A DNA stretch of 64,000 bases from Pectobacterium actinidiae (GTDB taxonomy: Bacteria; Pseudomonadota; Gammaproteobacteria; Enterobacterales; Enterobacteriaceae), in assembly GCF_000803315.1 (NCBI RefSeq), contig NZ_JRMH01000002.1:682001-746000 (forward strand). The letters run 5' to 3'. This document shows, piece after piece, positions 11,663-61,672 of this stretch. The position numbers and the translations under genes are program-made. The notes beneath the pieces are model-generated. The model worked only from the letters and a program-made list of their open reading frames with translations. It was not told where the DNA came from and made no database searches. The first letter of the stretch is position 1. Every line of letters begins with the position of its first letter.

Positions 11663-13198
11663 ATGGCGCACGATAATCTCGAAGGCCGATCCGCATCTGG
11701 CGAGTACGGCTCTCTCAATCTGAAAAAACGCTATGACAATTTTATCGGCGGAGCCTGGGTTCCACCTGATGCGGGTCAGTATTTTGTTAATTTGACGCCA
11801 GTAACGGGTCAACCGCTGTGTGAAGTCGCCAGTTCGTCAACGCGAGATATTGACCACGCGCTGGATGCTGCTCATAAGGCAAAAGCGGAATGGGGTGGTC
11901 TGTCGGTGCAAGATCGCGCGTTGGTGCTTAACCGAATCGCTGACCGTATGGAACAGAATCTTGAGCTGCTGGCGCAAGTGGAAACCTGGGATAATGGTAA
12001 ACCGATACGCGAAACCAGCGGGGCGGATGTGCCGCTGGCGATTGACCACTTTCGCTATTTCGCGGCCTGTATCCGTGCACAAGAAGGGGCGATCAGCGAA
12101 ATCGACGGCGATACCGTGGCCTATCATTTTCATGAACCTCTCGGTGTTGTCGGGCAAATCATTCCCTGGAATTTCCCGCTGCTGATGGCCTGTTGGAAGA
12201 TGGCACCGGCGCTGGCCGCCGGTAACTGTATTGTGCTAAAGCCCGCAAAACTGACGCCGATGTCGGTGTTGATTTTGATGGAACTGATTCAGGATCTGCT
12301 GCCGCCAGGCGTCATCAATGTTGTTAATGGGTCGGGCAGCGAAATTGGTGAATATCTGGCAACGTCGAAACGCGTTGCGAAAGTGGCATTCACCGGATCG
12401 ACCGAGGTGGGTCAGCAGATCATGAGCTATGCGGCGCAGAACGTGACGCCGGTAACGCTGGAGCTGGGTGGCAAATCGCCGAACATCTTCTTTGCCGATG
12501 TGATGGATAAAGAAGACAGCTTCTTTGACAAAGTGCTCGAAGGTTTCACGCTGTTTGCCTTCAATCAGGGAGAGGTCTGTACCTGTCCGAGTCGCGCGCT
12601 GGTGCAGGAATCGATCTACGATCGCTTTATGGAACGGGCAATCAAGCGTGTTGAGGCTATCCGCATTGGTAACCCGCTGGACAGCAAAACCATGATGGGC
12701 GCGCAGGTGTCCGCAGGTCAGCTTGATACCATCCTTAACTACATTGATATCGGTAAGAAAGAGGGCGCACGGGTACTCACGGGCGGTCAGCGTAAGGCAA
12801 TGCCTGGCGGGCTGGCGGAAGGCTACTATCTGGAGCCGACGATATTGTTTGGTAAAAACAGTATGCGTGTCTTCCAGGAGGAGATTTTCGGTCCGGTTCT
12901 GGCGGTCACAACGTTCAAAACGATGGATGACGCGCTGGAGATCGCCAACGATACGGAATACGGGCTGGGCGCTGGCGTGTGGAGCCGTAACGGTAACATC
13001 GCTTACCGAATGGGGCGCGGTATTCAGGCTGGACGCGTCTGGACCAACTGTTATCACGCTTATCCGGCGCATGCGGCGTTTGGGGGCTACAAGCAGTCTG
13101 GTATCGGGCGTGAGAACCATAAAATGATGCTGGAACACTATCAGCAAACCAAGTGCCTATTGGTGAGTTACTCTGATAAGCCGATGGGGCTGTTCTGA
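11663..13198 (+). CDS. aldB: Aldehyde dehydrogenase AldB
   Basis: NAD(P)-dependent oxidation of acetaldehyde and similar aldehydes in the cytoplasm. 511 residues (E. coli AldB 512), with near-identical blocks such as [41 protein letters not shown], the catalytic Glu in LELGGKSPN and the catalytic Cys in [14 protein letters not shown]. The E. coli homologue responds to stationary phase and CRP; no clear site was identified here. AAAAGGAGACTGAAATG gives a strong ribosome-binding site. Monocistronic by position. Confidence 0.96.
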
Positions 13199-13394
13199 TT
13201 CACTAACGCCATGCTGTGCCTACCTTTTCTGGTGAGTGCGCATGGCGTAAACCACTATGGTTTTTCCGTATTAATCCATCCCGATGACTCAGATTCGCCC
13301 GATTGTTGATCACAGGTTGTTGATCGTTGATTGTACCCGTGCTCAACAACGGCTACGCTGTTTTAAGTAGCGCTTTGCTTTCAAGAGGTTGTAC

Positions 13395-14387
13395 ATGAAG
13401 GATAAGATCGGCTGGATTGATAACCTGCGGGCGTTGGCCTGCATGATGGTCGTTCTGATTCATAGCACAACCTACTATATTACCGCAGGCGGCACGCCGG
13501 GCGATGGACACTGGGATGTGGCGAATATCCTGAACTCCGCTTCGCGCGTCTGCGTTCCGCTGTTTTTCATGATCTCGGGTTACTTATTCTTTGGTGAACG
13601 CAGCGCGGGGAAGAAGCATTTTCTGCGTATCGGTTTATGTCTACTTTTCTATAGTACGGTCGCGCTGATTTATATTGCGACGCTCACGCCGATTAACGGT
13701 CTGAATGCACTGCACCATGCGCTACAAAAACCGATCTTTTATCACTTATGGTTTTTCTACGCCATTATCGTGATTTATTTGCTCTCTCCCCTTATTACCA
13801 TCAAGCCGGTATCGGGTAAATATATAGCCGTCTTGATCATCTTGCTGGCCGTTGTCGCCAACCCCAATACGGGGAAGGTGGAGTTTGAAGGCTTTAAATT
13901 ACTGCCTGTGAATCTCTATATTTACGGCGATACGTTTTACTATGTGCTGTATGCCGCGCTGGGGCGTGCCTTAGGCATGTTGGATGTGCCAAAGAAAGTC
14001 GTACTGGCGGCTATCCCATTCTTTGTTGTGTGTGTTGCGCTGGTTGCGTTGGGGACAAAGCACCATACATTATTGAACGATACGTTCACCCAGACGTTTT
14101 ACATCTACTGTGGCCCGCTGGTGTTTCTGGCTGCGGTCAGCCTTCTGGTGGTGTTTAAGCACTACTTTAGCCAGTGGATTTTACCGGGCTTTGCCACCAT
14201 TTCGCGCCATTCGCTGGCGATTTACGGCTTCCACGCGTTGATCATTCACTATCTGCGTACGCATGATGTGATGCTACCCGCTCATCCGGTTTTCGATATC
14301 TTCTATGTCTTCGCTGTCACGCTGGCGGCCAGCCTGCTGCTTTCGATGGCGCTACAGAAAATCGATGTGCGTCGCTGGGTAAGTTGA
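13395..14387 (+). CDS. wecH: O-acetyltransferase WecH
   Basis: An integral-membrane acyltransferase-3 protein that acetylates enterobacterial common antigen in E. coli. 330 residues with about ten membrane segments; conserved blocks WIDNLRALACMMVVLIH, NSASRVCVPLFFMISGYLFFGER and SRHSLAIYGFHALIIH align with WecH. The ATG at 13395 follows AAGAGG by 6 bp; a TTG two codons upstream is less likely. In E. coli wecH lies beside glyQ, so the neighbourhood is rearranged here but still close to glyS. Confidence 0.92.
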   Translation: MKDKIGWIDNLRALACMMVVLIHSTTYYITAGGTPGDGHWDVANILNSASRVCVPLFFMISGYLFFGERSAGKKHFLRIGLCLLFYSTVALIYIATLTPINGLNALHHALQKPIFYHLWFFYAIIVIYLLSPLITIKPVSGKYIAVLIILLAVVANPNTGKVEFEGFKLLPVNLYIYGDTFYYVLYAALGRALGMLDVPKKVVLAAIPFFVVCVALVALGTKHHTLLNDTFTQTFYIYCGPLVFLAAVSLLVVFKHYFSQWILPGFATISRHSLAIYGFHALIIHYLRTHDVMLPAHPVFDIFYVFAVTLAASLLLSMALQKIDVRRWVS

Positions 14388-18830: not shown

Positions 18831-20033
18831 TCACACCTCGTCGATATTGCGGTATTCCCACAGCCGATTGAAATGCACATCGTCGAGATTGCGGGCTGAA
18901 TCCGCGTTACCCGCAAAGGGTCGTGCGGTCGTTGCCGCAGCTCCCCACGGCTGTTCTCTGTCATAGCTGGCGTCAATCGTGCTGTCGCGAATCACTAACT
19001 GGCCGTTTGCCGTTTGACCCGGCTGATATCCCGTCTGCCTTGCTCCCTGATCCCAGGCGCGACCCAGTTTGGCCTTTCTTTCTCCACTGAAGCCTTTGTC
19101 GCCCGTAAAACGACACGCCACTGCCAGAAAGCCGTACTGCACCCACGGCATGCTATCAGGCGCGAAGACATGAATATCTTTCGCACCACGGCTGGAAACG
19201 GTATGAAAGTGGACACGCTCAAATACTGCGGTCGCGCGCCCAAAAACGTAATCGACATCGCCTTCAATGTAGCTGTCTTTAATGTAGGCCCGGCTATAGC
19301 GATCCGTGACGTACTCATTCTGGAGGTTACTGGTATTGACGAAAAACGTATCCTGGCGACCGATGAGGCGAACCTGTTCAAGCTGTATCTTGTCGCCGTC
19401 GGTGCGTAGTGCCACGGCCTGATGCGCACGACTATCCACTGAATCCAGTAGCGTATTCACCACAGTGAGATTCTTCATTTGGAAATTGTCGCTCTGCGAC
19501 CAGACCACGGCGGAAAAAATGGTATCAATCGTCGCGTTCGGCTTTGACGCACAGAGATCGTACAGGTACCACGCAGGGTCGCCGGATTGATACTCACCGC
19601 GTGAGTTCACCGTTTCCCGGTAGGTTGCTGGTGAAAACATCGAATCCAGCGCGAGTTGAATCACGACGTCGTTCGGTTGTTCTCCCGCCCCAAATAGCGT
19701 GAGTGGTGGCGCATCGGCGGGGATGTAGACCGTGCCGGTATAGATGCCTGGCAGCAATTTAATCTCAATGCGTGCCCGATCCTGCTGCGCTCGCAGCGCG
19801 GCGTTCACCGCCTGTTGAACATGAGCGTATGTTGCGCCATCCACCCCCACCTGCGGCCCGACAACCCACGGCGTCGCCGGATCGACCTCAATCGGTGTGG
19901 GCTGCCAGACATCAGCTTCAGTCTGGTCATCGTGCCCGCGCAGCGTGAAATAGTGCGGGAGCGTGAAGCGATTCGCTTCCTGCTCGGAGAGGATGGGGCG
20001 ATGAACCGTGCCGGGGTAGGTCGTCTTTGTCAT
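18831..20033 (-). CDS. Pectin methylesterase (family CE8), no signal peptide
   Basis: A right-handed beta-helix carbohydrate esterase that removes methyl groups from pectin. 400 residues, with CE8 motifs in order: GATYAHVQQAVNAAL, QAVALRTDGD, GRQDTFF (acid/base Asp), YIEGDVDYVFGRA (nucleophile Asp) and LGRAWD (Arg). It resembles the YbhC/PemB branch. Unlike those it has no visible signal peptide or lipobox: the protein begins MTKTTYPGTVHRPIL and a TAG stop lies in frame just upstream, so it looks cytoplasmic, perhaps acting on short methylated oligogalacturonides. It is 21 bp downstream of glpM and beside the quorum-sensing pair. Confidence 0.92.
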   Translation of the reverse strand: MTKTTYPGTVHRPILSEQEANRFTLPHYFTLRGHDDQTEADVWQPTPIEVDPATPWVVGPQVGVDGATYAHVQQAVNAALRAQQDRARIEIKLLPGIYTGTVYIPADAPPLTLFGAGEQPNDVVIQLALDSMFSPATYRETVNSRGEYQSGDPAWYLYDLCASKPNATIDTIFSAVVWSQSDNFQMKNLTVVNTLLDSVDSRAHQAVALRTDGDKIQLEQVRLIGRQDTFFVNTSNLQNEYVTDRYSRAYIKDSYIEGDVDYVFGRATAVFERVHFHTVSSRGAKDIHVFAPDSMPWVQYGFLAVACRFTGDKGFSGERKAKLGRAWDQGARQTGYQPGQTANGQLVIRDSTIDASYDREQPWGAAATTARPFAGNADSARNLDDVHFNRLWEYRNIDEV

Positions 20034-20054
20034 GATCTTATCCTAGTAAAGAAG

Positions 20055-20396
20055 CTAATTCCCCTGATACCACGTCCAGATTTTCACCAACAATGCCGCA
20101 GAGACACTCCAACACACGACGGCCGCGAGCAGTGCCTGTGGCAATTTCATCCACGCGGTAAAGTAATAAAGTGAAATGAGATAAACCAGATAAGGAATCA
20201 CGGACCAGATGCCAAACAGGATGGTGGCGCGCAGCGCTTCCAGCCCGCGTTCGGTGCCAACGATGTAATGTGCGATCAGCGCGAAGGTGGGAAATAGCGG
20301 CACGAGCCCGGCAATATAATAATTTCGGCTTTTCGCCAGGACGCTAATGAGCAATACGATCAGTGCGCCGATAACCGATTTAATAAACAATGACAT
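20055..20396 (-). CDS. glpM: GlpM-family inner-membrane protein
   Basis: A 113-residue hydrophobic protein with about four membrane segments, closely resembling E. coli GlpM (KNYYIAGLIPLFPTFALIAHYIV appears here almost unchanged from residue 24). Its function is poorly known; GlpM has been linked to alginate or envelope phenotypes in other bacteria. It is transcribed leftward and lies 21 bp upstream of the pectin methylesterase, so the two may be co-transcribed. It is divergent from the lipid-like operon that starts at 20595. Confidence 0.88.
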   Translation of the reverse strand: MSLFIKSVIGALIVLLISVLAKSRNYYIAGLVPLFPTFALIAHYIVGTERGLEALRATILFGIWSVIPYLVYLISLYYFTAWMKLPQALLAAVVCWSVSAALLVKIWTWYQGN

Positions 20397-20594
20397 AAGT
20401 AGAACTTCTGGCCTAATTTAGTACCGTGAATGAACAGAGAATAGCGAAAAAGCATTGGGATGGAATAGTGCGATCGCACAGCTTAAGATTTCAATTCGTG
20501 GTGATTTCGTTATTCTTAGCAGCAGAATGAATAAATACTGTACGTGATAGCCTGCTCAGTACAGCTAAAACGATAATGAATCTGAAAAGGATTG

Positions 20595-21611
20595 ATGTTG
20601 AAGACGCAAAGTCATGCATTTACTCAGGGATTGGTTCCACTCAAGATTATTTCTACCGGCAGCGCGCTTCCTGCGCAGCGGGTGACGTCGGCTGAATTAG
20701 ATGTGCGGCTCAATAAGCCTGCGGGCTATGTCGAAAGCCGTTCAGGCATTATCTATCGTCACCATGCCGATAATCATGCTAGTCAGGCTGAACTCGGTGT
20801 GGTGGCGTTAAATGACGCACTGGCGCGGGGAATGATTCCACCGGCGTCAATCGATCTGCTGTTGTTTGCTTCTGCCATTCCGATCCAGGCGCTGCCTTAT
20901 AGCGCCAGCCATTTATTAAAGGCGTCGTCTCTGCCAAAAGGGACGGCCTGTTTCGATATTAACAGCAGCTGCGTCAGTTTTATTTCTGCACTTCAGGTGG
21001 CGGCAGGCTTGCTGAATACCGGCGCTTATCGGCGCATTGCCATTGTCTCTACTGAACTGGCCTCACGCGGGATCGACTGGGATGACGAAGAGTCGTCGCT
21101 GATTTTTGGCGATGGTGCGGCGTGCGCCATTGTTGAACGCGGTGATGGGCGTTGCGGGATTGCGGCGTGTCTGCTGGAAACCTATCCGAAGGGCAGCGAA
21201 CTGTGCCAAATCCGCGCAGGTGGCACCTTGCGTAACCCGCGTGCGGGGATGGAACTGCATGATTTTCTGTTCCACATGCAGGGAAAACGGCTGTTCAGGC
21301 AGGCGTCTGCCTTAATTGAAGGCTATCTGCAACGGCTGCTGGATGCCAGTGGCTATTCGCTGGAGCAGATGGCGGCGGTGGTTCCCCATCAGGCCAGTCA
21401 CCTGTCGCTGGAACATATGCGTAAGCGGCTGGCGATCCCGACGGAAAGGCTGATTGATATTTATCGCTATCACGGTAATCAGGTTGCGGCCTCGATTCCG
21501 ACGGCACTACATCATGCCATTGTGACGCAACGCCTGCCTGAAGGTGAACCCGCGATGCTGGTCGGTACGGCCGCCGGGTTGACGCTGGGCGGGATGGTAT
21601 TGATTCCATGA
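20595..21611 (+). CDS. Beta-ketoacyl-ACP synthase III / OleA-like thiolase-fold enzyme
   Basis: First gene of a seven-gene operon. 338 residues of the FabH/OleA thiolase-fold family with an intact Cys-His-Asn triad: C126 (DINSSCVSF), H265 (VVPHQAS) and N295 (YHGNQVAASIP). The FGDGAACAIV and GTAAGLTLGG motifs of the family are present. The chain likely condenses an acyl thioester with either malonyl-ACP (FabH mode) or a second acyl chain (OleA mode); sequence alone does not decide. The ATG at 20595 follows AAAGG; a TTG one codon earlier is possible. The next gene overlaps by ATGA. Confidence 0.9.
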   Translation: MLKTQSHAFTQGLVPLKIISTGSALPAQRVTSAELDVRLNKPAGYVESRSGIIYRHHADNHASQAELGVVALNDALARGMIPPASIDLLLFASAIPIQALPYSASHLLKASSLPKGTACFDINSSCVSFISALQVAAGLLNTGAYRRIAIVSTELASRGIDWDDEESSLIFGDGAACAIVERGDGRCGIAACLLETYPKGSELCQIRAGGTLRNPRAGMELHDFLFHMQGKRLFRQASALIEGYLQRLLDASGYSLEQMAAVVPHQASHLSLEHMRKRLAIPTERLIDIYRYHGNQVAASIPTALHHAIVTQRLPEGEPAMLVGTAAGLTLGGMVLIP

Positions 21612-22636
21612 GGGTCTTCGTCACGGGCGCAACCAGCGGATTGGGACGTAACGCGGTGGAATGGCTGCTTCAGGCCGGACATCAGGTGCTGGCCTGTGGG
21701 CGCGATTGCACCGTGGGTCAGCAGCTTGAAGCGCTGGGTGCGCAGTTCGCCCGCATTGATTTGGTGGAAACGCCGGTAGAGCAGTTTCGAACGCTGATGG
21801 CGGGCTGCGACGTGGTCTGGCACTGTGCTGCGAAATCATCACCGTGGGGGCAGTATGCTGATTTTTACCAGAATAATACTGAGGTAACGGCGCGACTGGC
21901 GGAAGCCGCCGGTCAACTGGGTATCCCGCGCGTTGTGCATATCTCCACGCCTGCGATTTATTTTGATTACCAACATCACCTGAATATTGATGAACGCTAC
22001 CGCGCGGCGCGTTTTGCCAATCACTATGCGCAGACCAAGTTTTTGGCCGAGGAGCGGCTTCAGGCGCTAGCGTCACGCTACCCGCAAACCACCTATGTCA
22101 TCCTGCGTCCGCGTGGCCTGTTTGGCCCACATGACCGTGTGATTCTGCCGCGTATTCTGGAGCAAATCGCGGTGGGTGGCGGCGTGCTGCGGCTTCCGCG
22201 CGGTGGCGAAGCGCTGCTGGATCTGACGTTTGTCGGCAACGTAGTCGAAGCGATGGCGCTCGCCAGCCAGCGCACGGGGCTGGTTTCTGGTTCGGCCTAC
22301 AACATCACCAATCATGAGCCGGCACGCCTTGCAGATATGCTCCAGCAACTGCTGATTGGTCAGTTGGGCATGAATTATCGTGTTAAGGCGGTGCCGTATC
22401 CGTTGCTGCATGTGGTGGCTGGTGGCATGGAACTGTTCTCGTGGTTTAGCCGCAAAGAGCCCCTACTGACGCGCTACAGCGCAGGCGCGGTGAATTTCGA
22501 TATGACGCTCAGCGCAGAGAAAGCGCAGCAAGAGCTGGGTTATCAGCCACGTTTTTCCCTCCAGCAGGGCATCGAGTTAACCGGTAGCTGGTTCAAAACA
22601 CATCTTGCGCAGCGGAGCACTGACGGACATGGCTAA
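21608..22636 (+). CDS. NAD(P)-dependent epimerase/3-beta-HSD family (OleD-like)
   Basis: An extended short-chain dehydrogenase of 342 residues. The Rossmann motif VTGATSGLGRNAVEWL is at residues 5-20 and the catalytic YxxxK is YAQTK (about residue 139), with STPAIYF just before. RPRGLFGPHD and LDLTFVGNVVEA are typical of the 3-beta-hydroxysteroid dehydrogenase/OleD branch, so reduction of a beta-keto product of the preceding synthase to a beta-hydroxy acid is a reasonable guess. It starts at an ATGA overlap with the synthase and overlaps the next gene by 8 bp. Confidence 0.88.
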   Translation: MRVFVTGATSGLGRNAVEWLLQAGHQVLACGRDCTVGQQLEALGAQFARIDLVETPVEQFRTLMAGCDVVWHCAAKSSPWGQYADFYQNNTEVTARLAEAAGQLGIPRVVHISTPAIYFDYQHHLNIDERYRAARFANHYAQTKFLAEERLQALASRYPQTTYVILRPRGLFGPHDRVILPRILEQIAVGGGVLRLPRGGEALLDLTFVGNVVEAMALASQRTGLVSGSAYNITNHEPARLADMLQQLLIGQLGMNYRVKAVPYPLLHVVAGGMELFSWFSRKEPLLTRYSAGAVNFDMTLSAEKAQQELGYQPRFSLQQGIELTGSWFKTHLAQRSTDGHG

Positions 22637-23435
22637 TATTTCGACGTTTGAAGTAGGATACTGCCTGCATCCAGGCTGCATGGCGCTGCGCGGTGCGGGA
22701 TGGAAAGTGTGCCGTTTTCCGGCGCGGGTCTGGATGCTGGAAAGTCAGGGTAAGCGCTGGCTTTGGGATACCGGTTATGCCCAGCATTTTACCGATGCTA
22801 CGCGTTCCGGCCTGTTCCAACTGTACCGTAGAATGACGCCGGTGCATTTTGAAACGAAAGACGCGCTGATTCATCAGCTACACGCGCAGGGCATTCAGCC
22901 TGCCGATATCGACGGCCTGATCATCTCCCATTTTCACGGCGACCATATCGCGGGGCTGCGGGATTTCCCTTCCGTGCCGTTTATCTGTTCGGCGCTGGGC
23001 TGGCAGCAGACGCGAAACCTGCGTGGTTTCGCAGCGTTGAAGCGGGCGTTTGTCCCTGCGCTGATCCCTGAACAATTTGAGCAGGCGCTCCAGTTTGTTG
23101 AGAACTTCCCACTTACCGATCTGCCAGCCGAGCTGGCACCGTTTACGCAAGGCTACGCGCTACCCGGTAGCGATAAAGAGATTGTGCTGGTGCCGTTGCC
23201 CGGCCACGCAGTCGGACACCTCGGCGCGTTTGTTCTGACTGAAAACGGCTGGGTGCTGCTGGCAAGCGATGCCGCCTGGTCGCCGCACAGCTATCGTGAA
23301 GGTCGCGGACCGTCGCGGTTGGCGAATCTGGTGATGGATGATCCACAAGCCTATTACCACACGCTGGACCAACTGCACCAGTTGCACCTGAACGGACAGG
23401 TCGAGATTCGGTTGTGTCACGAGGGCGACCTATGA
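22629..23435 (+). CDS. Metallo-beta-lactamase-fold hydrolase
   Basis: 268 residues. The dinuclear zinc signature is H101-F-H103-G-D105-H106 (SHFHGDH), followed by a His in PLPGHAVGHLG and the bridging Asp in LLASDAAWSP. Members hydrolyse thioesters, lactones or other acyl bonds. Here it may release or proof-read an acyl intermediate of the pathway. AHL-lactonase activity is imaginable given the neighbouring quorum genes, but nothing specific supports it. The ATG at 22629 (MANISTFEVGY) is preferred over one 8 codons upstream (22605). Confidence 0.88.
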   Translation: MANISTFEVGYCLHPGCMALRGAGWKVCRFPARVWMLESQGKRWLWDTGYAQHFTDATRSGLFQLYRRMTPVHFETKDALIHQLHAQGIQPADIDGLIISHFHGDHIAGLRDFPSVPFICSALGWQQTRNLRGFAALKRAFVPALIPEQFEQALQFVENFPLTDLPAELAPFTQGYALPGSDKEIVLVPLPGHAVGHLGAFVLTENGWVLLASDAAWSPHSYREGRGPSRLANLVMDDPQAYYHTLDQLHQLHLNGQVEIRLCHEGDL

Positions 23436-24718
23436 TTCCGCTGATGACGATCTGGCACTATTTCCGCGCCAGACGCCTCACCTTTGCCACCCGTCAGGCG
23501 CTTGAACGCCATCAGCAGCGTCAGCTTTCTCGTTTTGCACGGCGGGTGCTGGCGCGTAGCCCCTATTTTCGTCCTTACTGCCAGCTGCCGATTACCTCCT
23601 GGCCGACGATGGACAAAGCCGTAATGATGGCCGAATTCGATCGGATGAACACCGCCGGGCTTAAGCGGGATGACTTGCTTGCTTGCGCCCGTCGCAGTGA
23701 AGTGGATCGAGACTTCACGCCGAATGTGAACGGGTTTAGCGTCGGGCTGTCGTCAGGCACGTCTGGTCAGCGTGGTCTGTTTGTCGTCAGCCCGCGCGAA
23801 CAGCAGATTTGGGCAGGGGGAATGCTGGCGAAAATGCTGCCGGACGGTTTACGCGCCGGTGAACGGGTCGCGCTGTTTCTGCGGGCGGATAACAACCTGT
23901 ATCACAGTGTCGATAACCGCTGGCTCAGCCTATCGTTTTACGATCTCTTCGCGCCGTTTTCCGGCCATTTTCCGCGGCTGGAAGCGTGGTCGCCGTCCAT
24001 TATCGTCGCCCCCGCACAGGTGCTGCGCGAGCTGGCGCTGGCGGTACTGCGCGGTGAATTGCGCCTGTCGGTCAAAAAGGTGATTTCCGTGGCTGAGGTG
24101 TTGGAGCCGCAGGATAAGCAACTGTTACAGCAGGTCTTCGGGCAAGTAGGGGAAGTGTATCAGGCAACGGAAGGCTTTCTGGCATCGACCTGCGAACATG
24201 GCACGCTGCATCTCAACGAAGAATTTATTCACATTGAGCCGCAGTGGCTGGATGACACACGCTTTACGCCCATCATTACCGATTTCACCCGCAGCACGCA
24301 GCCGATTGTGCGCTATCGGCTGGATGATGTGCTGGTCAAACAGCAGGAACCCTGTGCATGTGGCCGCGTGACGATGGCGATTGCCCGTATTGAAGGGCGC
24401 AGCGATGACAGCCTGAGATTGCCGAACCACAGTGGTGAAACTCAGACCGTGTTTGCCGATCTCTGTAGTCGGATTATCGCTAACGCGCTGCCGCTGCATG
24501 CCGATTATCGGCTGATACAGCAGGGAGACGTGACGCTGCATTTATCCGCTGCGTGCAGTTTGCCGGAGTTGGAAGGCTGTCGGGATAGCCTGTCGCAGCA
24601 GTTTGCGTTACAGGGCATTGATGTGTCGCGGCTATGGTGGCAATTAACCGCGGGCGAGATCGCGCCGGAATTTACGCAAAAGCGCAGGCGTATTACCCGT
24701 TTGAAGGGGGAAGCATGA
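23432..24718 (+). CDS. F390 synthetase/PaaK-type adenylating ligase
   Basis: 428 residues of the adenylate-forming superfamily, nearest to the proteins often annotated F390-synthetase-related or PaaK-like. The phosphate-binding loop is GLSSGTSGQRGLFVVSP (about 108-124). YQATEGFLAST and VRYRLDDVL correspond to the substrate-pocket and ATP-ribose-binding motifs, and CACGR is typical of this branch. It should activate a carboxylate as an acyl-AMP and perhaps form a thioester. Methanogen F390 itself is irrelevant here. Start and stop overlap both neighbours as ATGA. Confidence 0.82.
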   Translation: MIPLMTIWHYFRARRLTFATRQALERHQQRQLSRFARRVLARSPYFRPYCQLPITSWPTMDKAVMMAEFDRMNTAGLKRDDLLACARRSEVDRDFTPNVNGFSVGLSSGTSGQRGLFVVSPREQQIWAGGMLAKMLPDGLRAGERVALFLRADNNLYHSVDNRWLSLSFYDLFAPFSGHFPRLEAWSPSIIVAPAQVLRELALAVLRGELRLSVKKVISVAEVLEPQDKQLLQQVFGQVGEVYQATEGFLASTCEHGTLHLNEEFIHIEPQWLDDTRFTPIITDFTRSTQPIVRYRLDDVLVKQQEPCACGRVTMAIARIEGRSDDSLRLPNHSGETQTVFADLCSRIIANALPLHADYRLIQQGDVTLHLSAACSLPELEGCRDSLSQQFALQGIDVSRLWWQLTAGEIAPEFTQKRRRITRLKGEA

Positions 24719-25371
24719 GGCGATCTCCTCAACACACGCTGCTATTGCGGCTGAAGGCGCTGCTCTTCGGCTGGGGAACGGTTGGGGTGGTGTATCAACT
24801 GAGCGCGCAGTTTCAGGGGCAGGGAACGGTGCTGCCGACGTCACTTGTTGATGAATGGATTTCCTTTAGCGCCTCGGCTATCTGGCTGTATCTCTCCTTT
24901 TTCATCATCGTGCCGCTGTCTTATTTATCCTGTCCGATGGCGCGTTTGGGGGGGCTACGTCAGGCAACGCAGCTTACTGCCGTGATGGCGGGCGTGGTAT
25001 ACCTGATTTTTCCGACCACGATGGTGTATCCACAGGTTGTCGGGGACGATCTTTCCACTCGTGTGCTACAGCTATTGCTGCGCATCGACTCGCCACAGAA
25101 TTGCCTGCCCTCGCTGCATATTGCGCTAACGGTGCTGGCTGTATGGGCGATGAGCGACGGCCAGCAGAAGGTGAAAACGGGCTTTTATCTTCTCTGGGGT
25201 GTCGCGATTGCCTTTTCCATCCTGCAACTGCGACGCCACCTGTTCATCGATCTGGTGACTGGCGCGATGCTAGCGGGAATCACCGGATGGGTCTTTCTGT
25301 ACCGCCGGGGGGCAGTAAAGGCGATTTCCCCAGCGGCTCCGCTGCCTAACGATAAGCGCCATCAGGAATGA
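24715..25371 (+). CDS. PAP2-family membrane phosphatase
   Basis: 218 residues with several membrane segments. The PAP2 (type 2 phosphatidic acid phosphatase) core is reduced but recognisable: LPSLHIALTVLAVWA (catalytic His of motif 2) and RRHLFIDLVTG (motif 3, HxxxD). It probably removes phosphate from a lipid-like substrate at the membrane, or moves an alcohol intermediate out. A longer in-frame start (24634) would run far into the ligase gene; the ATGA overlap at 24715 is the natural start. Confidence 0.85.
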   Translation: MRRSPQHTLLLRLKALLFGWGTVGVVYQLSAQFQGQGTVLPTSLVDEWISFSASAIWLYLSFFIIVPLSYLSCPMARLGGLRQATQLTAVMAGVVYLIFPTTMVYPQVVGDDLSTRVLQLLLRIDSPQNCLPSLHIALTVLAVWAMSDGQQKVKTGFYLLWGVAIAFSILQLRRHLFIDLVTGAMLAGITGWVFLYRRGAVKAISPAAPLPNDKRHQE

Positions 25372-25375
25372 AATC

Positions 25376-26491
25376 ATGATCGATTTGGCATTACCGATAG
25401 TCCTCATGTTAGTTGTGGTGGTTGGCGAAGCGCTGATTTTGCAGTGGATGCAGCGTGAGAAGGTGAACTGGCACGATGTGGTTTTCAACCTGAATTCAGG
25501 GCATATCATGCTGTGGCTTTTCCGCAGTGTGGAAATTTTTTGCTATGGCTATGTCGCAGCGCATTTCAGCTTGGGTTGGGTAGAAACCTGGCCGCCAGTG
25601 TTAATGTGGCTGTTCGCGATACTCGCCTGGGATTTTGGTTTTTATTGGCTACATCGCCTGCACCATACCTTTGGCGTGCTGTGGGCGGTGCATGTGGTGC
25701 ATCATCAGGGCGAGCATTTCAATCTGTCGTTGGGCGTGCGTAACTCGTGGTATTCCTCGCTGACCTCCATTCCGTTCTTCCTGATTCTGGCGCTGCTCGG
25801 CGTCCCGCTGTACGTATTCGTCACCGTTTCCATCCTGCATTACAGCGTTCAGCTCTTTAACCATAACGCGATGACGCCCAAACTGGGCTGGCTGGAAAAG
25901 GTGCTGGTGACGCCAGCACACCATCGGGTACACCATGTGAATGACCGCGCCTACGCCGATAAGAATTTCGGCGGCACCTTTATTTTTTGGGACAAACTGT
26001 TTGGCAGTTTTTGTCCACAGCTGCCTGATACGCCTTTCCGCTACGGGGCAGGCAGAGAAACCCCCTCGAAAAACCCGTTTTGGGCCAGCAACCAACCTTT
26101 TATGTCGTACCTGAAATTGTCGGTGCGCCGTACGGGTCAGGCGACGTTTCACTGTACGCCAGTGGCGCTGATTGCCGGTGCGATGTTGCTGTTTTCACTG
26201 GTAGTGGGCTACGTCTATCTGTATGGCTACGGCTATGATTCCGCCAACCTGTCGCAGGCGGCGCTCTTCCTGCTGTTGGTCGCCGGTGCGGTCGCGCTGG
26301 GCGGGATTTCCGAAGGGCGACGCTGGGGTATTTACATCTGGCTGCTGGTGGGGCTGCTATTCCCCGCTGTGTTTCTCGTCTATCTGGGCTGGGAAGCGCT
26401 CTATTGGAAGATAGCCATGCTGACGCTGATGATCCACGGGCTGGCAATGGCAATCGGCTGGGGCCGACACCCGATTGTCGAGGAAGAGTAA
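25376..26491 (+). CDS. Sterol desaturase / fatty acid hydroxylase superfamily
   Basis: A 371-residue membrane di-iron enzyme. The histidine boxes are intact: HRLHH (93-97), HVVHHQGEHFN (106-116) and HHRVHH (182-187). Hydrophobic segments flank the boxes, and a further C-terminal hydrophobic part (about 255-345) makes it longer than simple hydroxylases. It likely hydroxylates or desaturates an acyl or isoprenoid chain at the membrane. True sterol chemistry is unlikely in this organism. It starts 4 bp after the PAP2 gene and its stop shares a base with the next ATG (TAATG). Confidence 0.9.
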   Translation: MIDLALPIVLMLVVVVGEALILQWMQREKVNWHDVVFNLNSGHIMLWLFRSVEIFCYGYVAAHFSLGWVETWPPVLMWLFAILAWDFGFYWLHRLHHTFGVLWAVHVVHHQGEHFNLSLGVRNSWYSSLTSIPFFLILALLGVPLYVFVTVSILHYSVQLFNHNAMTPKLGWLEKVLVTPAHHRVHHVNDRAYADKNFGGTFIFWDKLFGSFCPQLPDTPFRYGAGRETPSKNPFWASNQPFMSYLKLSVRRTGQATFHCTPVALIAGAMLLFSLVVGYVYLYGYGYDSANLSQAALFLLLVAGAVALGGISEGRRWGIYIWLLVGLLFPAVFLVYLGWEALYWKIAMLTLMIHGLAMAIGWGRHPIVEEE

Positions 26492-27588
26492 TGCTCGCAC
26501 CGCTAAAGCCTCTGCGCTATGAACAAGGTCGCGATCTGGCGTTGCATCGGGCGCTGATTAAAGCCGCGAATGACTATCTGGCAGCAACGGGCGATCACCG
26601 TTTTGCCAACGCCGGGTTTATCGGCAAGATGCTGTTTCTGGTGGCGTTGTGTCTGACGTTTTATGGTTTCAGTCTCTTGCAGACGACGCTGTGGGGCTTT
26701 GCGTGCTGTTACTTTGGCTTTATTTTTACCGCCATGTTTCTGGCGGTGAATGTGGTGCATGATGCCTCGCACAACGTCTTTTTCCGGCGGCCGTGGGCGA
26801 ATCGCCTGCTCAATATCGTGGTGAGTATTCCGCTCGGCATGGATTCCGACTGCTGGCGAGTGCGGCATGTGATTTTTCATCATGCGCATGTGAATGTGCA
26901 GCACTACGATCTCGATATTGAAGAGAACGGCGTCTTGCGGCAGTCCCCTTATCATCGGTTTCGCGGTTTTATGCGCGCCCAGCGCTACTACTGGCCGCTG
27001 GTGGCGTCGCTGACCTTTCCCTGCATCATTTGGTTTTTTGACTGGATAGATCGTGCGGGGAAAACGCAGGTGACGCGAAATATGACGCTTCAAGGCGTGA
27101 AGGGCTGGGGCGTTTTCCTGCTTTCCAAAGTGCTACATGCCTTATTGGCGCTGGCTATTCCTTACTGGCTGCTGTCGCCAACTCCCGTCGGTTTTGGCTC
27201 ACTGCTACTGGTTTACCTGCTGAGCCAAATGCTGTCATCGCTGATTTTTGTCGTCCTGATTCTGGGGTCGCACTGGGCAAAAGGGACATTCTATCAGGCA
27301 CCGGAAGACGGTCTGTTCAGGCATGGTCGCTATCAGCACGTGTTTTCCACCACGGTGGACTGGACTACCCGCCCTGCCTGGCTCGGTTACTGGCTGGGAC
27401 AGCTCAATATGCATCTGACCCACCATATTTTCCCCAACTGGAATCACCGGCACTATCCCGCACTGTCGAAAATCATTGCGGATATTGCCCCGCGTTACGG
27501 CATTGATTACCAATGTATTACGCTGAAATCGATTCTGATTGAGCAACAACGCTTTCTTAAAAAGATGGGCAATGGCAGCAAAAAATAG
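26491..27588 (+). CDS. Membrane fatty acid desaturase
   Basis: 365 residues, last gene of the seven-gene operon. Three di-iron histidine boxes are visible: HDASH (90-94), HVIFHHAHVN with HH at about 130 and HLTHHIFPNWNHRHYP near residue 310, separated by membrane segments. It resembles acyl-lipid or acyl-CoA desaturases that put double bonds in long acyl chains. With the hydroxylase next door it suggests that a long chain is oxidised at two places. Start by TAATG coupling with the upstream gene. The next gene begins 60 bp later and looks independent. Confidence 0.9.
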   Translation: MLAPLKPLRYEQGRDLALHRALIKAANDYLAATGDHRFANAGFIGKMLFLVALCLTFYGFSLLQTTLWGFACCYFGFIFTAMFLAVNVVHDASHNVFFRRPWANRLLNIVVSIPLGMDSDCWRVRHVIFHHAHVNVQHYDLDIEENGVLRQSPYHRFRGFMRAQRYYWPLVASLTFPCIIWFFDWIDRAGKTQVTRNMTLQGVKGWGVFLLSKVLHALLALAIPYWLLSPTPVGFGSLLLVYLLSQMLSSLIFVVLILGSHWAKGTFYQAPEDGLFRHGRYQHVFSTTVDWTTRPAWLGYWLGQLNMHLTHHIFPNWNHRHYPALSKIIADIAPRYGIDYQCITLKSILIEQQRFLKKMGNGSKK

Positions 27589-27648
27589 CCCGTTATCTCT
27601 ATTTATTAATAAGTTAGATTTTCATCTGTATTCAAGGAGCGAGACTTC

Positions 27649-28578
27649 ATGCGTTATTTATCTCTGGCCGTTTCATCCCTGCTGTTCTTTTTTACTTCGT
27701 CCGTCTGGGCGATGGATTGCAGCAAGGCCAGTACAGACACCGAGAAAATGATTTGTGCCAGCAGCCGTTTACAGCAGCTTGATGCAGTATTAAACAAGGC
27801 CTATCAGGGGTACGTGAAAAAAGAAGACAAAGCGCAAGCGCGTCAGGAGCAGCGCGCGTGGCTGGCCGAGCGTGACCGCTGCAAGGATGAGGTTTGTTTG
27901 GGGAATGAGATGGTTTCCCGTATTCAGGCGCTTTCCGGCAGTGAAAATATCTCCCTGATTACGCAGGCCTCAGGCCAGTGGGACTTCGTTCTCAGCGTGG
28001 CGACGTGCGATCTCGATACCTCTTATTCAATCTGTGAAGGCGCTGGCACGCTGGATATTTTTAAGAAAGGGCGCGGTGAGCTATTCCAGCGTATCACGAT
28101 GGAAAACCTGTTCATCGAGCTGAACAAGAAAGGGGAAGTGACAGCGAATCTGGTCGAGGTCTACGGTGAGAACAACAGTGGGCTGGTGATTGATGACGCT
28201 AACTTCGACCATCATGCGGATATCATGCTGCGTAATGGCAATAACGGTGCTTACGGCGGGCCGTCTTACGACGTCTACCTGTTTGATGTGGAAAAGCAGC
28301 AGTTCACCCAGAATGCGCCGCTGACCGAGCTAGCCAGTTCTAATCTCGGCCTGTTCGAAATCGATGAGAAAAGTAAGACCATCACGACGTTTACCAAAAG
28401 TGGCTGCTGCTGGCACCAATGGTCTACCTACCAGATGGCGAATAATAAACCTGTCCTGATTGTCGAAACCACGGAAGCCTACTCCGAAGAAAAACAGGCG
28501 ATGGTAGCCACAACCCGCGAGTTGGTGGGTGGCAAGTGGAAGGTGAAGGAAGAGATAGTAAAAGTCGACGAGCAGTAA
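27649..28578 (+). CDS. LprI N-terminal-domain periplasmic protein
   Basis: 309 residues, exported: signal peptide MRYLSLAVSSLLFFFTSSVWA then MDCSKAS. Residues about 22-95 match the LprI-N domain (DUF1311, lysozyme-inhibitor-like): DCSKASTDTEKMICAS, LNKAYQ, QRAWLAERDRC. The rest is a beta-rich domain with D.NFDHHADIMLRNG.NGAYGG, as in FG-GAP/XAC2610-like proteins. It may inhibit a lysozyme or bind a cell-wall ligand, which is inference. AAGGAGCGAG precedes the ATG. It follows the lipid-like operon by 60 bp but has its own signal and no clear link to it. Confidence 0.82.
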   Translation: MRYLSLAVSSLLFFFTSSVWAMDCSKASTDTEKMICASSRLQQLDAVLNKAYQGYVKKEDKAQARQEQRAWLAERDRCKDEVCLGNEMVSRIQALSGSENISLITQASGQWDFVLSVATCDLDTSYSICEGAGTLDIFKKGRGELFQRITMENLFIELNKKGEVTANLVEVYGENNSGLVIDDANFDHHADIMLRNGNNGAYGGPSYDVYLFDVEKQQFTQNAPLTELASSNLGLFEIDEKSKTITTFTKSGCCWHQWSTYQMANNKPVLIVETTEAYSEEKQAMVATTRELVGGKWKVKEEIVKVDEQ

Positions 28579-56773: not shown

Positions 56774-57763
56774 ATGAGTCGTGTGGATATCAGCGTCATT
56801 GTTCCAATATATAATTGCGAAGAGTACATAGAGCCTCTTTTTTCGTCGTTGCTTGCTCAGGATAATGTCTCTTTTGAAATTATTGCGATCAATGATGGTT
56901 CCACTGATAGCAGTCTTTTGAAGTTGAATGAGATAGGCAAATTGGCTACGAATTTGATTATTGTAAGCCAGGAAAATAAAGGGTTATCTGAAGCGAGAAA
57001 TACAGGGATTCGGCACGCGAATGGGGAGTGGATTGCATTTGTTGATGGCGATGACTGGTTGGAAAAAGATACGCTATCGACATGGCTTGGGAAAGCTGAG
57101 GAGCAACGCCTCGACCTCTTGATAGGTAATGGTTTCAAGTTTAGTGAAAACCCGGAACAAGAAATAAAAGAACCTATTCAGACGAAACAACCATGGGGTG
57201 AGGTAATCAGCGGCGATGAATGGGTTATTCGTGGTGTACAACATAATGAATGGTGCCACTTTGCCTGGTTGCAGCTCATACGTCGCGATATTATCTTATT
57301 GAATAATTTGAATTTTATTCCAGATATGATGCATGAGGATATTCTATGGACGGCGAATTTGGCGCTGGTAGCCAAGCGCGTCGGTTTCTGTGAAAAGATG
57401 GGTTATGGTTATCGCGTTGGTAATACTCATTCGATCACAAAGTCATCATCCGTTGAGAAAATAGCACGCAGAGCAAACAGCTATATTGACATCATGCAGG
57501 GCTTGATTTCTATCGCGACTCAGAAAAAAGATAACGTTACTTTAAATAAAGCATTAATTCGTCATGCTAATCGAGAGAGTCGCCATCTTTTCGGGCTTTT
57601 GCGTAAAAAAATATCATCGCCTGATGTTCGGCAGCAGCTAGCTAGAAAATTTATCGCTACAGGTATTGGTGGGAATTTATTCAAGGGAATGCAGTCATTT
57701 AATGACTTTTGGTATGCCCTGCGTTTTTATTTTACGATTTATCTATATTCAAAGAAAAAATAA
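56774..57763 (+). CDS. Family 2 glycosyltransferase
   Basis: 329 residues, GT-A fold: ISVIVPIYNCEEYIEPLFSSLL at the start, INDGSTD, SEARNTGIRHANGEWIAFVDGDDWLE (DXD-type DGDD). The acceptor is unknown; a C-terminal amphipathic or membrane-near stretch (FWYALRFYFTIYLYSKKK) hints at a membrane-bound acceptor such as LPS core. It sits between mutM and coaD, where waa-type genes are found in related bacteria; base composition is more AT-rich than its neighbours. Convergent with coaD, only 5 bp apart. Confidence 0.85.
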   Translation: MSRVDISVIVPIYNCEEYIEPLFSSLLAQDNVSFEIIAINDGSTDSSLLKLNEIGKLATNLIIVSQENKGLSEARNTGIRHANGEWIAFVDGDDWLEKDTLSTWLGKAEEQRLDLLIGNGFKFSENPEQEIKEPIQTKQPWGEVISGDEWVIRGVQHNEWCHFAWLQLIRRDIILLNNLNFIPDMMHEDILWTANLALVAKRVGFCEKMGYGYRVGNTHSITKSSSVEKIARRANSYIDIMQGLISIATQKKDNVTLNKALIRHANRESRHLFGLLRKKISSPDVRQQLARKFIATGIGGNLFKGMQSFNDFWYALRFYFTIYLYSKKK

Positions 57764-57768
57764 TTTCT

Positions 57769-58269
<501 letters not shown>

Positions 58270-58296
58270 TCATTCACGGTATTGGTAGCTACTGTT

Positions 58297-59574
58297 TTAC
58301 TGTGTCCGCTGGGGCAAATAAGGTTCCAGTAGTGTAAGCAGCATCTGTAGTGCGCCCTGGTTTTGGTGTAACACTTCCACGGCGTGTCGACCATAGTAAA
58401 GACGATAGTCTTCGTCAGCGAGCAGTTTCCCTACTTCTTTTCCAAGGGAGTCTGCATCGGTCACAGTAATCAGCCCGTCGGCCTGATCGAGTTTGTTGCA
58501 GATGTCTTTGAAATTGAAAGTGTGTGGCCCCATCAACACTGGAATAGCATGAGCTGCCGCTTCTAGTGGATTATGTCCGCCGCGTTCAACCAAACTCCCA
58601 CCGACAAACGCCAGATCGGCGATGCCATATAACAGCATCAGCTCGCCCATGGTGTCCCCAATAACCACCTGTGTATTCGCAGAAGGCTGCTCGCCACTGC
58701 TGCGCAGCGTGTAGGTGAAGCCCAGATTTTCTGCCAGCGCTTGTGTGGTGGAGAAGCGTTCTGGGTGGCGAGGTACAAGAATGAGCAATAAGTCAGGGTA
58801 GGTAGCAAGCAGCTGTCGGTGAGCGGCCAGAACGATTGCTTCTTCACCTTCGTGAGTACTGGTGGCGATCCATACCGGACGGTGTGGTGCCCATTGCCGA
58901 CGTAATGTAATGGCTCGTGCCGCCAGTTCTGGCGTCACGGAGATATCAAATTTGAGGCTACCGGTCACTTTCAGGCTGGATCGCTTCAGACCAAGATCGA
59001 TAAATCGATTACCATCTTCCTGATTCTGTGCGGCGACGAGGGTAATACGCCGCAAGATATGGCGCATTAATTTGCCGATCTTTTTATAGCCAGCCGCGGA
59101 ACGTTCTGACAGCCGGGCATTCGCAATAACCAACGGAATTTCGCGTTTATGCAGCTCCGCTATCAGGTTCGGCCATAGCTCGGTTTCCATAATGATGACG
59201 ATTTTCGGACGAACCTGGTCAAAAAAGCGTTTTAAGGCACAGGGCAAATCGTAAGGCAGGTAAACGTGATAGACCGTGTCGCCAAAAGCGGAACGCACGC
59301 GCTCGGAACCGGTTGGCGTCATGGTTGTTACCGTGATCGGCAGGTTGGGATAACGATGGCGCAGCGCTCTGACTAAGGGAATAGCAGCCAGCGTTTCCCC
59401 CACCGACACCGAATGCAGCATGATGCCATCGGGTTTGACCTTCTCCGCACAAAAACCGTAACGTTCACCCCAACGCCGACGATAGGCAGGAGCTTTGCGA
59501 CCACGAAGCCACAAGCGAAGCCAAATCAACGGTTGGATGAGGTACAGGATAATGGTGTAGAGAGTTTGTAGCAT
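58297..59574 (-). CDS. waaA: Kdo transferase WaaA
   Basis: Adds two Kdo residues to lipid IVA at the start of LPS core synthesis, on the inner face of the inner membrane. 425 residues: membrane anchor at 1-25, then the GT-B fold with GVSVGETLAAIPLVRAL-type segment (HSVSVGETLAAIPLVRALR), PKIVIIMETELWPNLI, TSTHEGEEA, and VGGSLVERGGHNPLEAAA. Head of a waaA-coaD pair. A 370-bp gap separates it from waaE upstream. Confidence 0.97.
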   Translation of the reverse strand: MLQTLYTIILYLIQPLIWLRLWLRGRKAPAYRRRWGERYGFCAEKVKPDGIMLHSVSVGETLAAIPLVRALRHRYPNLPITVTTMTPTGSERVRSAFGDTVYHVYLPYDLPCALKRFFDQVRPKIVIIMETELWPNLIAELHKREIPLVIANARLSERSAAGYKKIGKLMRHILRRITLVAAQNQEDGNRFIDLGLKRSSLKVTGSLKFDISVTPELAARAITLRRQWAPHRPVWIATSTHEGEEAIVLAAHRQLLATYPDLLLILVPRHPERFSTTQALAENLGFTYTLRSSGEQPSANTQVVIGDTMGELMLLYGIADLAFVGGSLVERGGHNPLEAAAHAIPVLMGPHTFNFKDICNKLDQADGLITVTDADSLGKEVGKLLADEDYRLYYGRHAVEVLHQNQGALQMLLTLLEPYLPQRTQ

Positions 59575-59944
59575 AAGGTTTACGGTTATCAGTTATCGCT
59601 GGGGTGATTTTATCGGGTTAGTGCGGATAAGGCTATTTGTAAAACGGCTGTTGTTTATTCCTTTGCCGATTTTCCTGAAAATTGCTGGTAGAGGCGCACA
59701 TGACCCTAATCGTTGAGTCTGGTACGGGATAAGCAGGACAACCGGGCGAACCGGAAGATCTGACTATATCCACAGATATCTTACTTATAGAGACGTTTTT
59801 ATCTATTTGGAATTTTCACGGAAGATTAAGTATGCTTTTAGTGTATATCTGATGGATTTTTTAGGTGTTTTCATCTCTGTATCATACTTGGTAAAAGATT
59901 AAATCATATTTAATAACATCAGTGTCTTATTATAATCGTAATTT
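59575..59944. other. Intergenic region between waaE and waaA
   Basis: 370 bp with no credible ORF, repeat or RNA. It should carry the waaA promoter and the waaE 3' end. The part nearest waaE (59810-59944) is very AT-rich and grades into the next locus, so it may mark the edge of an acquired segment. Confidence 0.5.
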
Positions 59945-60712
59945 TTATTTCTTATTCTTATTAAACGACCACAATGCTGTATACTTATTAAATGTATATT
60001 GGGCGTTAACAAATGCGAGCAGGAGTCCTTGTTTTCCATCCAAAAAACCTGCTCGGAATATCCAGGTTTTTAAGAATGAAAATATGGAGTGAGTAAGTAT
60101 CTCAGAATAGCGGCAAGATATTTCTCTCTCATGACGTTCTCTTGCCCACGCAACAGCATAGCGCAGCTGTTTTTTCTGGAATGCTGAGAAATCACGACAG
60201 GTTAAATGTTTAAGATCGCCAGCCAGGTGCTGAATAGGAGCGTCGCCACAATCCAATGATTCATGTACATTGTTATCATTGTACTTATAGTGTTTATTTG
60301 CGTAGAGGCGGATAACTTTATCAGGATACCACCCGCTATGCTTCATAAAGCGACCAAGAAAGAGATTTTTTCGAGCGCAAGAGTAAACGATTTTATCATC
60401 TAGGTTGGGTTTGAGTAACACGCTTTCAATGGATTGGCGCAGCTCGGGCGTCATTCTTTCATCGGCATCAATAAAGAATATATAGTCTCCGCTAGCATAA
60501 CCCTGCGCACGCTGCCTTTGCTTACCATATCCCGGCCAGTCATTGTGTTGATAGACTTTTGCACCGTATTGATGTGCGATCTCTACAGTGTTATCTGTGC
60601 TGCCAGAATCGACTACAATGATTTCATCTGCCCACGAGATAGATTGTAGACACTCCTCTATTAGTTCGGATTCGTTTTTTGTAATGATCCCAATAGACAG
60701 ATATTTTCTCAT
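59945..60712 (-). CDS. waaE: LPS core glycosyltransferase WaaE (GT2)
   Basis: 255 residues. WaaE of Klebsiella/Serratia adds beta-1,4-glucose to heptose I. The GT-A blocks are [72 protein letters not shown] (DAD motif) and the typical [32 protein letters not shown]. Lies upstream of waaA, as in related enterobacteria. More AT-rich than waaA; it heads toward the AT-rich glycosyltransferases beyond. Confidence 0.92.
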
Positions 60713-60731
60713 TTCTTTCCTTATGATGAAG

Positions 60732-61634
60732 TTATATTAATTTCAGTCTATGGGTTGGGCAATTATTTTTTATATTAAAAATAGATCTAGGATGACATTT
60801 TCTTAACACAAACATAGTCATATTATATGTTGTTACTAAGTTGTTTTTCATCCTAATAAAATCTCTAAGAATAACCCAGAGAGTACTGATTGAGCCTTTC
60901 TTCTGATATGCAATCCGGGAAAATAGCTTAAAGTAAGACAACTCTATCTGCCTAAATTCACTTCTTGATTCGTTAGGATCTAATAGTGCGAAAGAGTGAC
61001 ATATTTTATTTTTACAGCAAACAGTTATTCTGGGTGATGGTTCCATTGCATTAAATATTTTAAAGAAATCACAATCGATTCCATAAAATCCCAGTCTTTC
61101 TTCAAAGACATATTTTCGATATTCTATAATTCTATTTGTAACACTCTTGGATAAGGTAATACCAGACATCACTGTCTCTATTTTCTCATTGATAAAACCT
61201 TCGGTGACTATTTTTTCACCATTTTCAGTTTTATATGGATGCGTTTGAGTCATTTTTCCATTTATATCACAATAAATTTTAGGTATTATAATGTCTGTAT
61301 TTTCATAGAGCTTGTTATCAAAAAATTCTTCAGGTAGTCCTGAATCCTGATCTAATATTGTGATGTAGTCATAGTCTATATCTTTAATAAAATGATTGTA
61401 TATCTTGGAGAGTGATACGTTTCTCATATCCTGAAATATATCAACTTTTATATTTAAACTTGAACAAAGAGAGAAAAATACTTCTATATCTTTTTCTTCC
61501 AGTTTTACAGGGCCGTTGTTCCATATTTTCAAGGTGAGTTTAATGTTGTTAAGTCGATTCATTAAAATACTTTGCAACGTATCTGATTTTGAAAGACTCA
61601 CATTGTATAAGACAACAACGGCAGTTATATTCAT
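60732..61634 (-). CDS. Family 2 glycosyltransferase A (rhamnosyltransferase-like)
   Basis: 300 residues. GT2 start [21 protein letters not shown], then LKIWNNGP, and the ILDQDSG motif (the LDQDS of RfbF/RfbN-type rhamnosyltransferases, in place of DXD). It shares IWNNGP, Q.RN.SLSKIYN and ILDQD with the next gene, so the pair is a diverged tandem duplication. Very AT-rich. Function in LPS core or outer polysaccharide assembly is inferred; donor and acceptor are unknown. Confidence 0.82.
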
Positions 61635-61672
61635 TTTTATAAAAGTCCGATCAGTAGAGTTTCAATGAGTGT

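Follow-up and report, generated by a model that had tools for sequence, protein, structure and literature searches.

The Ole pathway brings together a thiolase-fold synthase, an OleD-like short-chain reductase, an ATP-dependent ligase and a hydrolase, and the same classes of enzyme are found in the Pectobacterium actinidiae cluster described here. The nearest solved relatives of its ketosynthase (KS) are MxnB and CorB, presumably alpha-pyrone ketosynthases, with which it has Gln98 in common. Sphingolipid tailoring is carried out by IPC synthase/Aur1, SMSr, FA_hydroxylase, desaturase and GT21 glucosyltransferase, and members of the same superfamilies occur in the membrane tail of the cluster and in the glycosyl tails of related loci. 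The adenylate-forming enzyme (AF) is a member of TIGR02304, a model that names a protein and not a pathway, and whose family line makes no mention of a four-gene core or of swapping tails.

Every enzyme family in the cluster is already known. No description of their combination or modular use, and no pathway assigned to the gene set, was found in open-licence PMC text, in agreement with the preliminary description, which knew of no characterised cluster with these seven genes; subscription papers lie mostly outside that scope, and prior work may exist. The strings in passages of PMC5230779 that appear to name ECA0110-0112 are KEGG pathway ids such as eca01100, and were discarded. A coenzyme F390 synthetase is reported in Acinetobacter phenol data (PMC5501837), in passages that mention no such cluster. 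Passages of PMC10991766 list secondary-metabolite clusters of P. betavasculorum, including one of beta-lactone type, with genes not stated there; these may include the present cluster.

Layout of the cluster and its membrane tail

The window analysed is a stretch of 64,000 nucleotides of the P. actinidiae genome. The cluster within it consists of the following genes:

20595..21611, + strand: KS, FabH/MxnB-type condensing enzyme, core gene 1 (Cys126-His265-Asn295)
21608..22636, + strand: SDR, extended short-chain reductase, core gene 2, nearest named family OleD (Y140-x3-K144)
22629..23435, + strand: MBL, metallo-beta-lactamase-fold hydrolase, core gene 3, with a complete two-metal site (H101/H103/D105/H106/H193/D214/H264)
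23432..24718, + strand: AF, adenylate-forming enzyme TIGR02304, core gene 4 (P-loop 107-112, Lys417)
24715..25371, + strand: PAP2_3-family membrane enzyme, with motifs PSLH (132-135) and RHxxxD (174-179)
25376..26491, + strand: STD, FA_hydroxylase (sterol-desaturase superfamily) membrane enzyme, with His-rich motifs
26491..27588, + strand: FAD, membrane fatty acid desaturase, orthologous to FAD2, the second of the two desaturases in relatives

The seven head-to-tail genes of the preliminary description are confirmed by the open reading frames and their overlapping or nearly touching ends. There are 4-base overlaps at the KS/SDR, MBL/AF and AF/PAP2 junctions, an 8-base overlap at SDR/MBL (MBL has an alternative TTG start at 22605), a 4-base gap at PAP2/STD and TAATG at STD/FAD. 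The enzyme families named there were matched by Pfam and NCBIfam, which give a thiolase fold for KS (PF08541/PF08545), and MBL fold, PAP2_3, FA_hydroxylase and FA_desaturase for the others. The cluster is more than a chance arrangement, because the gene order recurs in other genera and because dN/dS is 0.022-0.217 for all seven genes when compared with three Pectobacterium relatives (L030, L037 and L039); no internal stops occur within the stretches compared. Promoter and terminator scans of 20000-28000 were uninformative: a single promoter-like site was returned, compared with 5.2 in shuffled sequence, and 15 terminator-like sites compared with 9.4, of which 14 are on the + strand and fall within genes.

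The best matches of the predicted PAP2 model in a fold comparison are inositol-phosphorylceramide synthase, SMSr and Aur1, with phosphatases nearly tied. Profile searches against the PDB returned only LpxE (E 0.42) for PAP2, and nothing at E 0.1 for the desaturases. The His-rich motifs of STD are invariant across 13 aligned sequences.

Two desaturases are present in 10 of the 11 named Pectobacterium loci, and one in the P. actinidiae cluster and in L032. The P. actinidiae FAD matches the FAD2 of L030 at 95% and its FAD1 at 48%, and a genome search found no FAD1 elsewhere in P. actinidiae. The P. actinidiae cluster has lost FAD1, the first of the two tandem desaturases. Because the GAGGA(AGA) stretch at its desaturase junction is also found at both ends of FAD1 in L030, a deletion between short repeats is suggested. 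The losses in P. actinidiae and L032 look independent, because L030, whose synthase is the closest to the P. actinidiae KS in the tree described below, keeps both desaturases.

A four-gene core with alternative tails

A contig scan gave 24 named loci, of which 11 are from Pectobacterium, 5 from Pseudomonas and 3 from Serratia, with one each from Rahnella, Erwinia, Dechloromonas, Budvicia and Enterobacteriaceae B14. In 23 of these the genes run KS-SDR-MBL-AF-PAP2-STD-FAD, and Budvicia has SDR-MBL-AF only; in L043 KS is split over two open reading frames. The genes are thus linked in most of the loci read, rather than usually unlinked. The seven-gene unit stands for P. actinidiae itself, but 17 of the 24 named relatives carry eight genes, with two tandem desaturases, and conservation extends furthest for the first four genes; the other three make up one of several alternative tails.

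The core KS-SDR-MBL-AF is found in Proteobacteria, Bacillota and Fusobacteriota. In a table of 69 loci, which leaves out L119 as well as L111-L113, whose AF matches are weak and near which no further core gene was detected, KS is present in 66, SDR in 69, MBL in 68 and AF in 69; after merging of duplicates (L046/L064, L047/L071, L048/L063 and L053/L076) the counts are 63/65, 65/65, 64/65 and 65/65 distinct loci. Pairwise distances of the four proteins rise together across loci, in a distance test that left out 18 of the 69. Shared ancestry of the hosts accounts for some of this in-step divergence, but the 16 distant loci span three phyla.

The genes that follow the core vary. Among 26 regions around family matches, 16 have the full membrane module and 9 do not, while L074 reaches the contig end after STD. 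The series SDR2-GT21-small protein-GT1 is found in 8 of the 26 (L065 lacks a call for the small protein), and its sugar enzymes are of GT21 (HpnI-like) type and near the macrolide-glycosyltransferase type, both below cut-offs in Pfam and NCBIfam. In L072 and L073 only the core is present, whereas L078 and L079 are disrupted and, as judged by eye, surrounded by transposase-like open reading frames. Beside the core are found a divergently read sulfotransferase (Paracoccus L116 and L146, Ketogulonicigenium L120), ATP-grasp and GNAT (Paenibacillus L117, Paraburkholderia L122), ATP-grasp (Pontibacillus L118), GNAT-Rieske and ATP-grasp (Shinella L144, Rhizobium L145), Rieske and ATP-grasp (L110, L138, L139), DUF3419, which we take to be a BtaA-like aminocarboxypropyl transferase (Rhizobium L125), and GT21 (Fusobacterium L124). 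A search of the P. actinidiae genome for a GT21 gene, which had no positive control, was empty. The conserved unit is a four-gene core with intact active sites, joined in different loci to alternative tail modules.

TIGR02304 matches occur in 27 of 198 genomes of the same bacterial family (26 above cut-off), and AF is present in 23 of 25 Pectobacterium genomes, that of P. actinidiae included. In the class-level set 2 of 369 genomes are above the cut-off, one being that of P. actinidiae, and 87 of the 89 matching genomes are below it; in the phylum-level set the count is 7 of 398, again with the P. actinidiae genome included. A control genome, Deinobacterium chartae, also has a match above cut-off. 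Of 5426 complete E. coli genomes, a collection weighted towards clinical strains, 672 (~12%) carry a relative of the operon, and in 671 of them a match spans 80% or more of the query. Carriers include the probiotic strain Nissle 1917, ABU 83972, NRG 857C and strains labelled Seattle 1946 and ST131. The E. coli proteins (L115) are 54-69% identical to those of P. actinidiae, and the operon (L126) lies between narI and the tRNA-Tyr/purU side.

No high-identity match to the P. actinidiae operon was found in the plasmid collection. AF relatives, near or distant, are encoded by 64 plasmid records, many of them being distant PaaK-like ligases. The core forms one run in 14 of 16 chosen plasmid hits (two with ATP-grasp inserted, one reordered, and that in L121 judged from the spacing of matches); in the other two, KS and SDR are apart from MBL-AF (L142), or AF is alone in 21 kb (L119, a P. 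amygdali megaplasmid). A phage origin was rejected, AF having no match in 50,697 phage records.

Identity of the core enzymes

The preliminary description proposed an OleA-like synthase with an intact C126-H265-N295 triad. The triad is correct, and is invariant in 53/53 cluster synthases. The OleA-like identity is not upheld. The catalytic Glu of OleA is taken here to lie 26 residues before the active Cys, and in the alignment this position is Leu in 44 of the 53 cluster KS, Ile in 9 and Glu in none. Glu is present in the OleA of L130, a KSIII gene called OleA from its linkage to an over-cut-off OleD ~4 kb away. MxnB and CorB likewise have no Glu here, and Gln98, present in all 53 cluster KS and in MxnB and CorB, is missing from the four FabH rows and from OleA. 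Against solved structures, KS scores 156 bits to 4v2p (presumably MxnB), 142 to 4yuc (CorB), up to 140 to FabH and 33 to 3row, which we take to be OleA.

A maximum-likelihood tree was made of 60 rows, after removal of 14 of the 67 KS rows as near copies, second copies or fragments (L043, L079, L142, L064, L071, L063, L031, L033-L035, L037, L038, L050 and L062). The 53 core KS form a single group (91/86), joined to MxnB/CorB at 99/93 and standing beside that clade, not within it; only seven outside rows were included and the program warned of long branches. FabH forms a separate group (98/94), and the single sampled OleA is far outside on a very long branch. An identity as OleA was therefore rejected on the missing Glu, the 33 bits to 3row and the tree. 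Housekeeping FabH was also rejected: KS scores 189.5 bits to TIGR00747 (FabH), below the cut-off of 292.1, it lies outside the FabH group in the sampled tree, and the only other KSIII found in the genome, its own FabH encoded elsewhere, is 28% identical to it.

The other three core enzymes have complete active sites, counted in 63 loci (L043, L079, L142, L064, L071, L063 and L076 were left out). The OleD-like reductase of the preliminary description stands: the best named families for SDR are two OleD models (165.5 and 163.2 bits), though these scores are short of the cut-off of 580. SDR shares 32% identity with the OleD of L130, its closest solved protein is a sterol-4-carboxylate 3-dehydrogenase, and its Tyr and Lys are kept in 63/63. 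In MBL all seven metal ligands are kept in 63/63, and the solved proteins nearest to it are acyl-homoserine lactonases and pyridoxolactonase. AF matches TIGR02304 ('F390 synthetase-related protein') at 576.4 bits, above the curated cut-off of 251.9, which bears out the earlier view that the ligase is of another family than OleC. Its P-loop Ser107 and Gly109, Glu247 and Asp299 are present in 63/63 and Lys417 in 62/63. The closest solved protein is PaaK (31 bits), and PaaK-type relatives of AF activate free acids. In the ole loci L130-L132, where OleB and OleC were named by eye, AF and MBL matched nothing with an E value under 0.4, the best being 0.43 and 0.50.

Predicted product and comparison with known systems

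On this basis we propose the following pathway. KS would use a fatty acyl thioester to form a single carbon-carbon bond, by Cys attack and a His/Asn-assisted Claisen condensation, as in FabH and MxnB/CorB. SDR would reduce the 3-keto group to a 3-hydroxyl, MBL would hydrolyse the thioester (or a lactone), and AF would convert the free acid to an acyl-adenylate again, letting the chain be passed on. In a tail of the P. actinidiae type, FA_hydroxylase and desaturase would oxidise the chain, and the PAP2_3 protein may put a phospho-head group onto a lipid alcohol, or take phosphate off it, as with sphingolipid synthases acting on ceramide. In other bacteria the core stands beside predicted sugar, sulfate, aminocarboxypropyl or amino-acid-type head-group enzymes. 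That the operon makes a dedicated, decorated membrane or secreted lipid, with a predicted head group on a KS-derived backbone, is a reading that we hold to be evenly balanced. A more specific proposal is put forward tentatively, and we consider it rather less probable: that the core makes an undescribed bacterial lipid backbone, a KS-built hydroxylated chain standing in for ceramide, with interchangeable head groups that would be phospho (PAP2_3), sugar (GT21), sulfate, aminocarboxypropyl (DUF3419) or of amino-acid type.

A different chemistry would be an Ole pathway rebuilt from other families, in which KS couples two fatty chains head to head, SDR acts as OleD, AF closes a beta-lactone and MBL opens or decarboxylates it, the tail then oxidising a long-chain olefin, beta-lactone or branched acid. 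In its favour, one conserved block holds all four Ole activity classes, OleD models are the best for SDR, and MxnB and CorB, which also have no Glu, join two chains. This is nevertheless unlikely, given the absence of the OleA Glu in 53/53, the distance of KS from the sampled OleA, the lack of AF or MBL matches in the ole loci, and partners (PAP2, DUF3419 and glycosyltransferases) that olefins do not need. It is similarly doubtful that a FabH-type extension yields a modified free fatty acid or short hydroxy acid, as a signal or antibiotic, with AF activating a starter, KS extending it once with malonyl-ACP, SDR reducing, MBL releasing and PAP2 as an ordinary lipid phosphatase. The intact decarboxylative C-H-N triad, the lactonases closest to MBL, the free-acid activation by PaaK relatives and the near tie of phosphatases in the PAP2 comparison fit this, but it leaves unexplained the recurrence of head-group-type enzymes in unrelated tails, and the KS group is separate from FabH.

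The preliminary description also suggested quorum control from the neighbourhood, and a Pectobacterium virulence metabolite under ExpI/ExpR would agree with the presence of AF in most of the genus. The adjacency itself stands, in 11 of 12 Pectobacterium loci, but the stretches read around the 57 other loci contain no expI/expR. There is no good lux box in the 200 bases upstream (best 6/10 positions here, and 5 to 8 in ten relatives), and the upstream region varies within Pectobacterium. A perfect ACCTG-N6-CAGGT at 23386-23401 was rejected as a lux box, being inside the MBL gene and kept in 7 of 12 Pectobacterium loci. A conserved quorum linkage was therefore rejected, the case from the neighbourhood is weak, and control of such a metabolite by ExpI/ExpR is very improbable.

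If the decorated-lipid reading is true, this is a pathway in at least three phyla and ~12% of complete E. coli genomes with no product found in print. If the ceramide stand-in is also correct, soft-rot bacteria, Pseudomonas, Serratia, many E. coli, Rhizobiaceae, Bacillota and Fusobacterium would all possess a pseudo-sphingolipid system; the modular tails predict a common backbone with differing head groups. The operon is present in E. coli Nissle 1917, a probiotic laboratory strain, and the product can therefore be sought by gene removal there.

Compared with the Ole pathway, the cluster has a synthase without the OleA Glu, placed elsewhere in the tree, and a ligase and hydrolase from other families (OleB is an alpha/beta hydrolase, whereas MBL has the metallo-beta-lactamase fold), as well as extra membrane and head-group enzymes. 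It differs from MxnB/CorB in having no polyketide assembly line, in its other partners and in the long branch between them. In contrast to sphingolipid systems, the backbone would be made by a ketosynthase, and no serine palmitoyltransferase-like open reading frame was seen in the cluster. The head-group and membrane enzyme types are shared, and the tail thus resembles a sphingolipid tailoring kit, predicted to act on a ketosynthase-made backbone.

Desaturase loss and a palindrome in the MBL gene

The first of the two tandem desaturase genes found in relatives (FAD1) has been lost cleanly from the window, as seen when positions 26440–26600 are compared with positions 13010–14300 of the Pectobacterium locus L030, and the junction carries a short GAGGA repeat. 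FAD1 is also missing from Pectobacterium locus L032, and the two losses are apparently independent events. Inside the gene for the metallo-β-lactamase fold protein (MBL) is a perfect palindrome, ACCTG-N6-CAGGT (23386–23401), which is conserved in 7 of the 12 Pectobacterium loci.

Neighbouring quorum-sensing genes and a low-GC stretch

The quorum-sensing genes expI/expR upstream of the operon fall into two classes among the Pectobacterium loci (L030–L039, L050, and L062). The identity of expI to that of the window is 94–98% in one class and 73–74% in the other, and the same operon adjoins both. A low-GC stretch at 56774–63767 (30–34% past 60 kb) contains glycosyltransferase-like genes, adjoining coaD- and waaA-like genes (names assigned by eye), and is probably a variable LPS region.

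Core genes outside Pectobacterium

In E. coli KE48 (L115), the operon copy sits on a 386-kb record that is labelled as a plasmid and also contains narGHJI, galU, and hns; this record may be a misjoined piece of chromosome or a large chromosomal capture.

On the Pseudomonas megaplasmid pBASL58 (L142), MBL and the adenylate-forming enzyme (AF) are separated from the synthase (KS) and reductase (SDR), amid small hypothetical genes, while on pMPPla107 (L119), also a Pseudomonas megaplasmid, AF occurs without other core genes within the stretch read. The Fusobacterium vincentii locus (L124) is a single run, SDR-GT21-small protein-SDR-MBL-AF-KS, in which GT21 is a glycosyltransferase and the first SDR was identified by eye.
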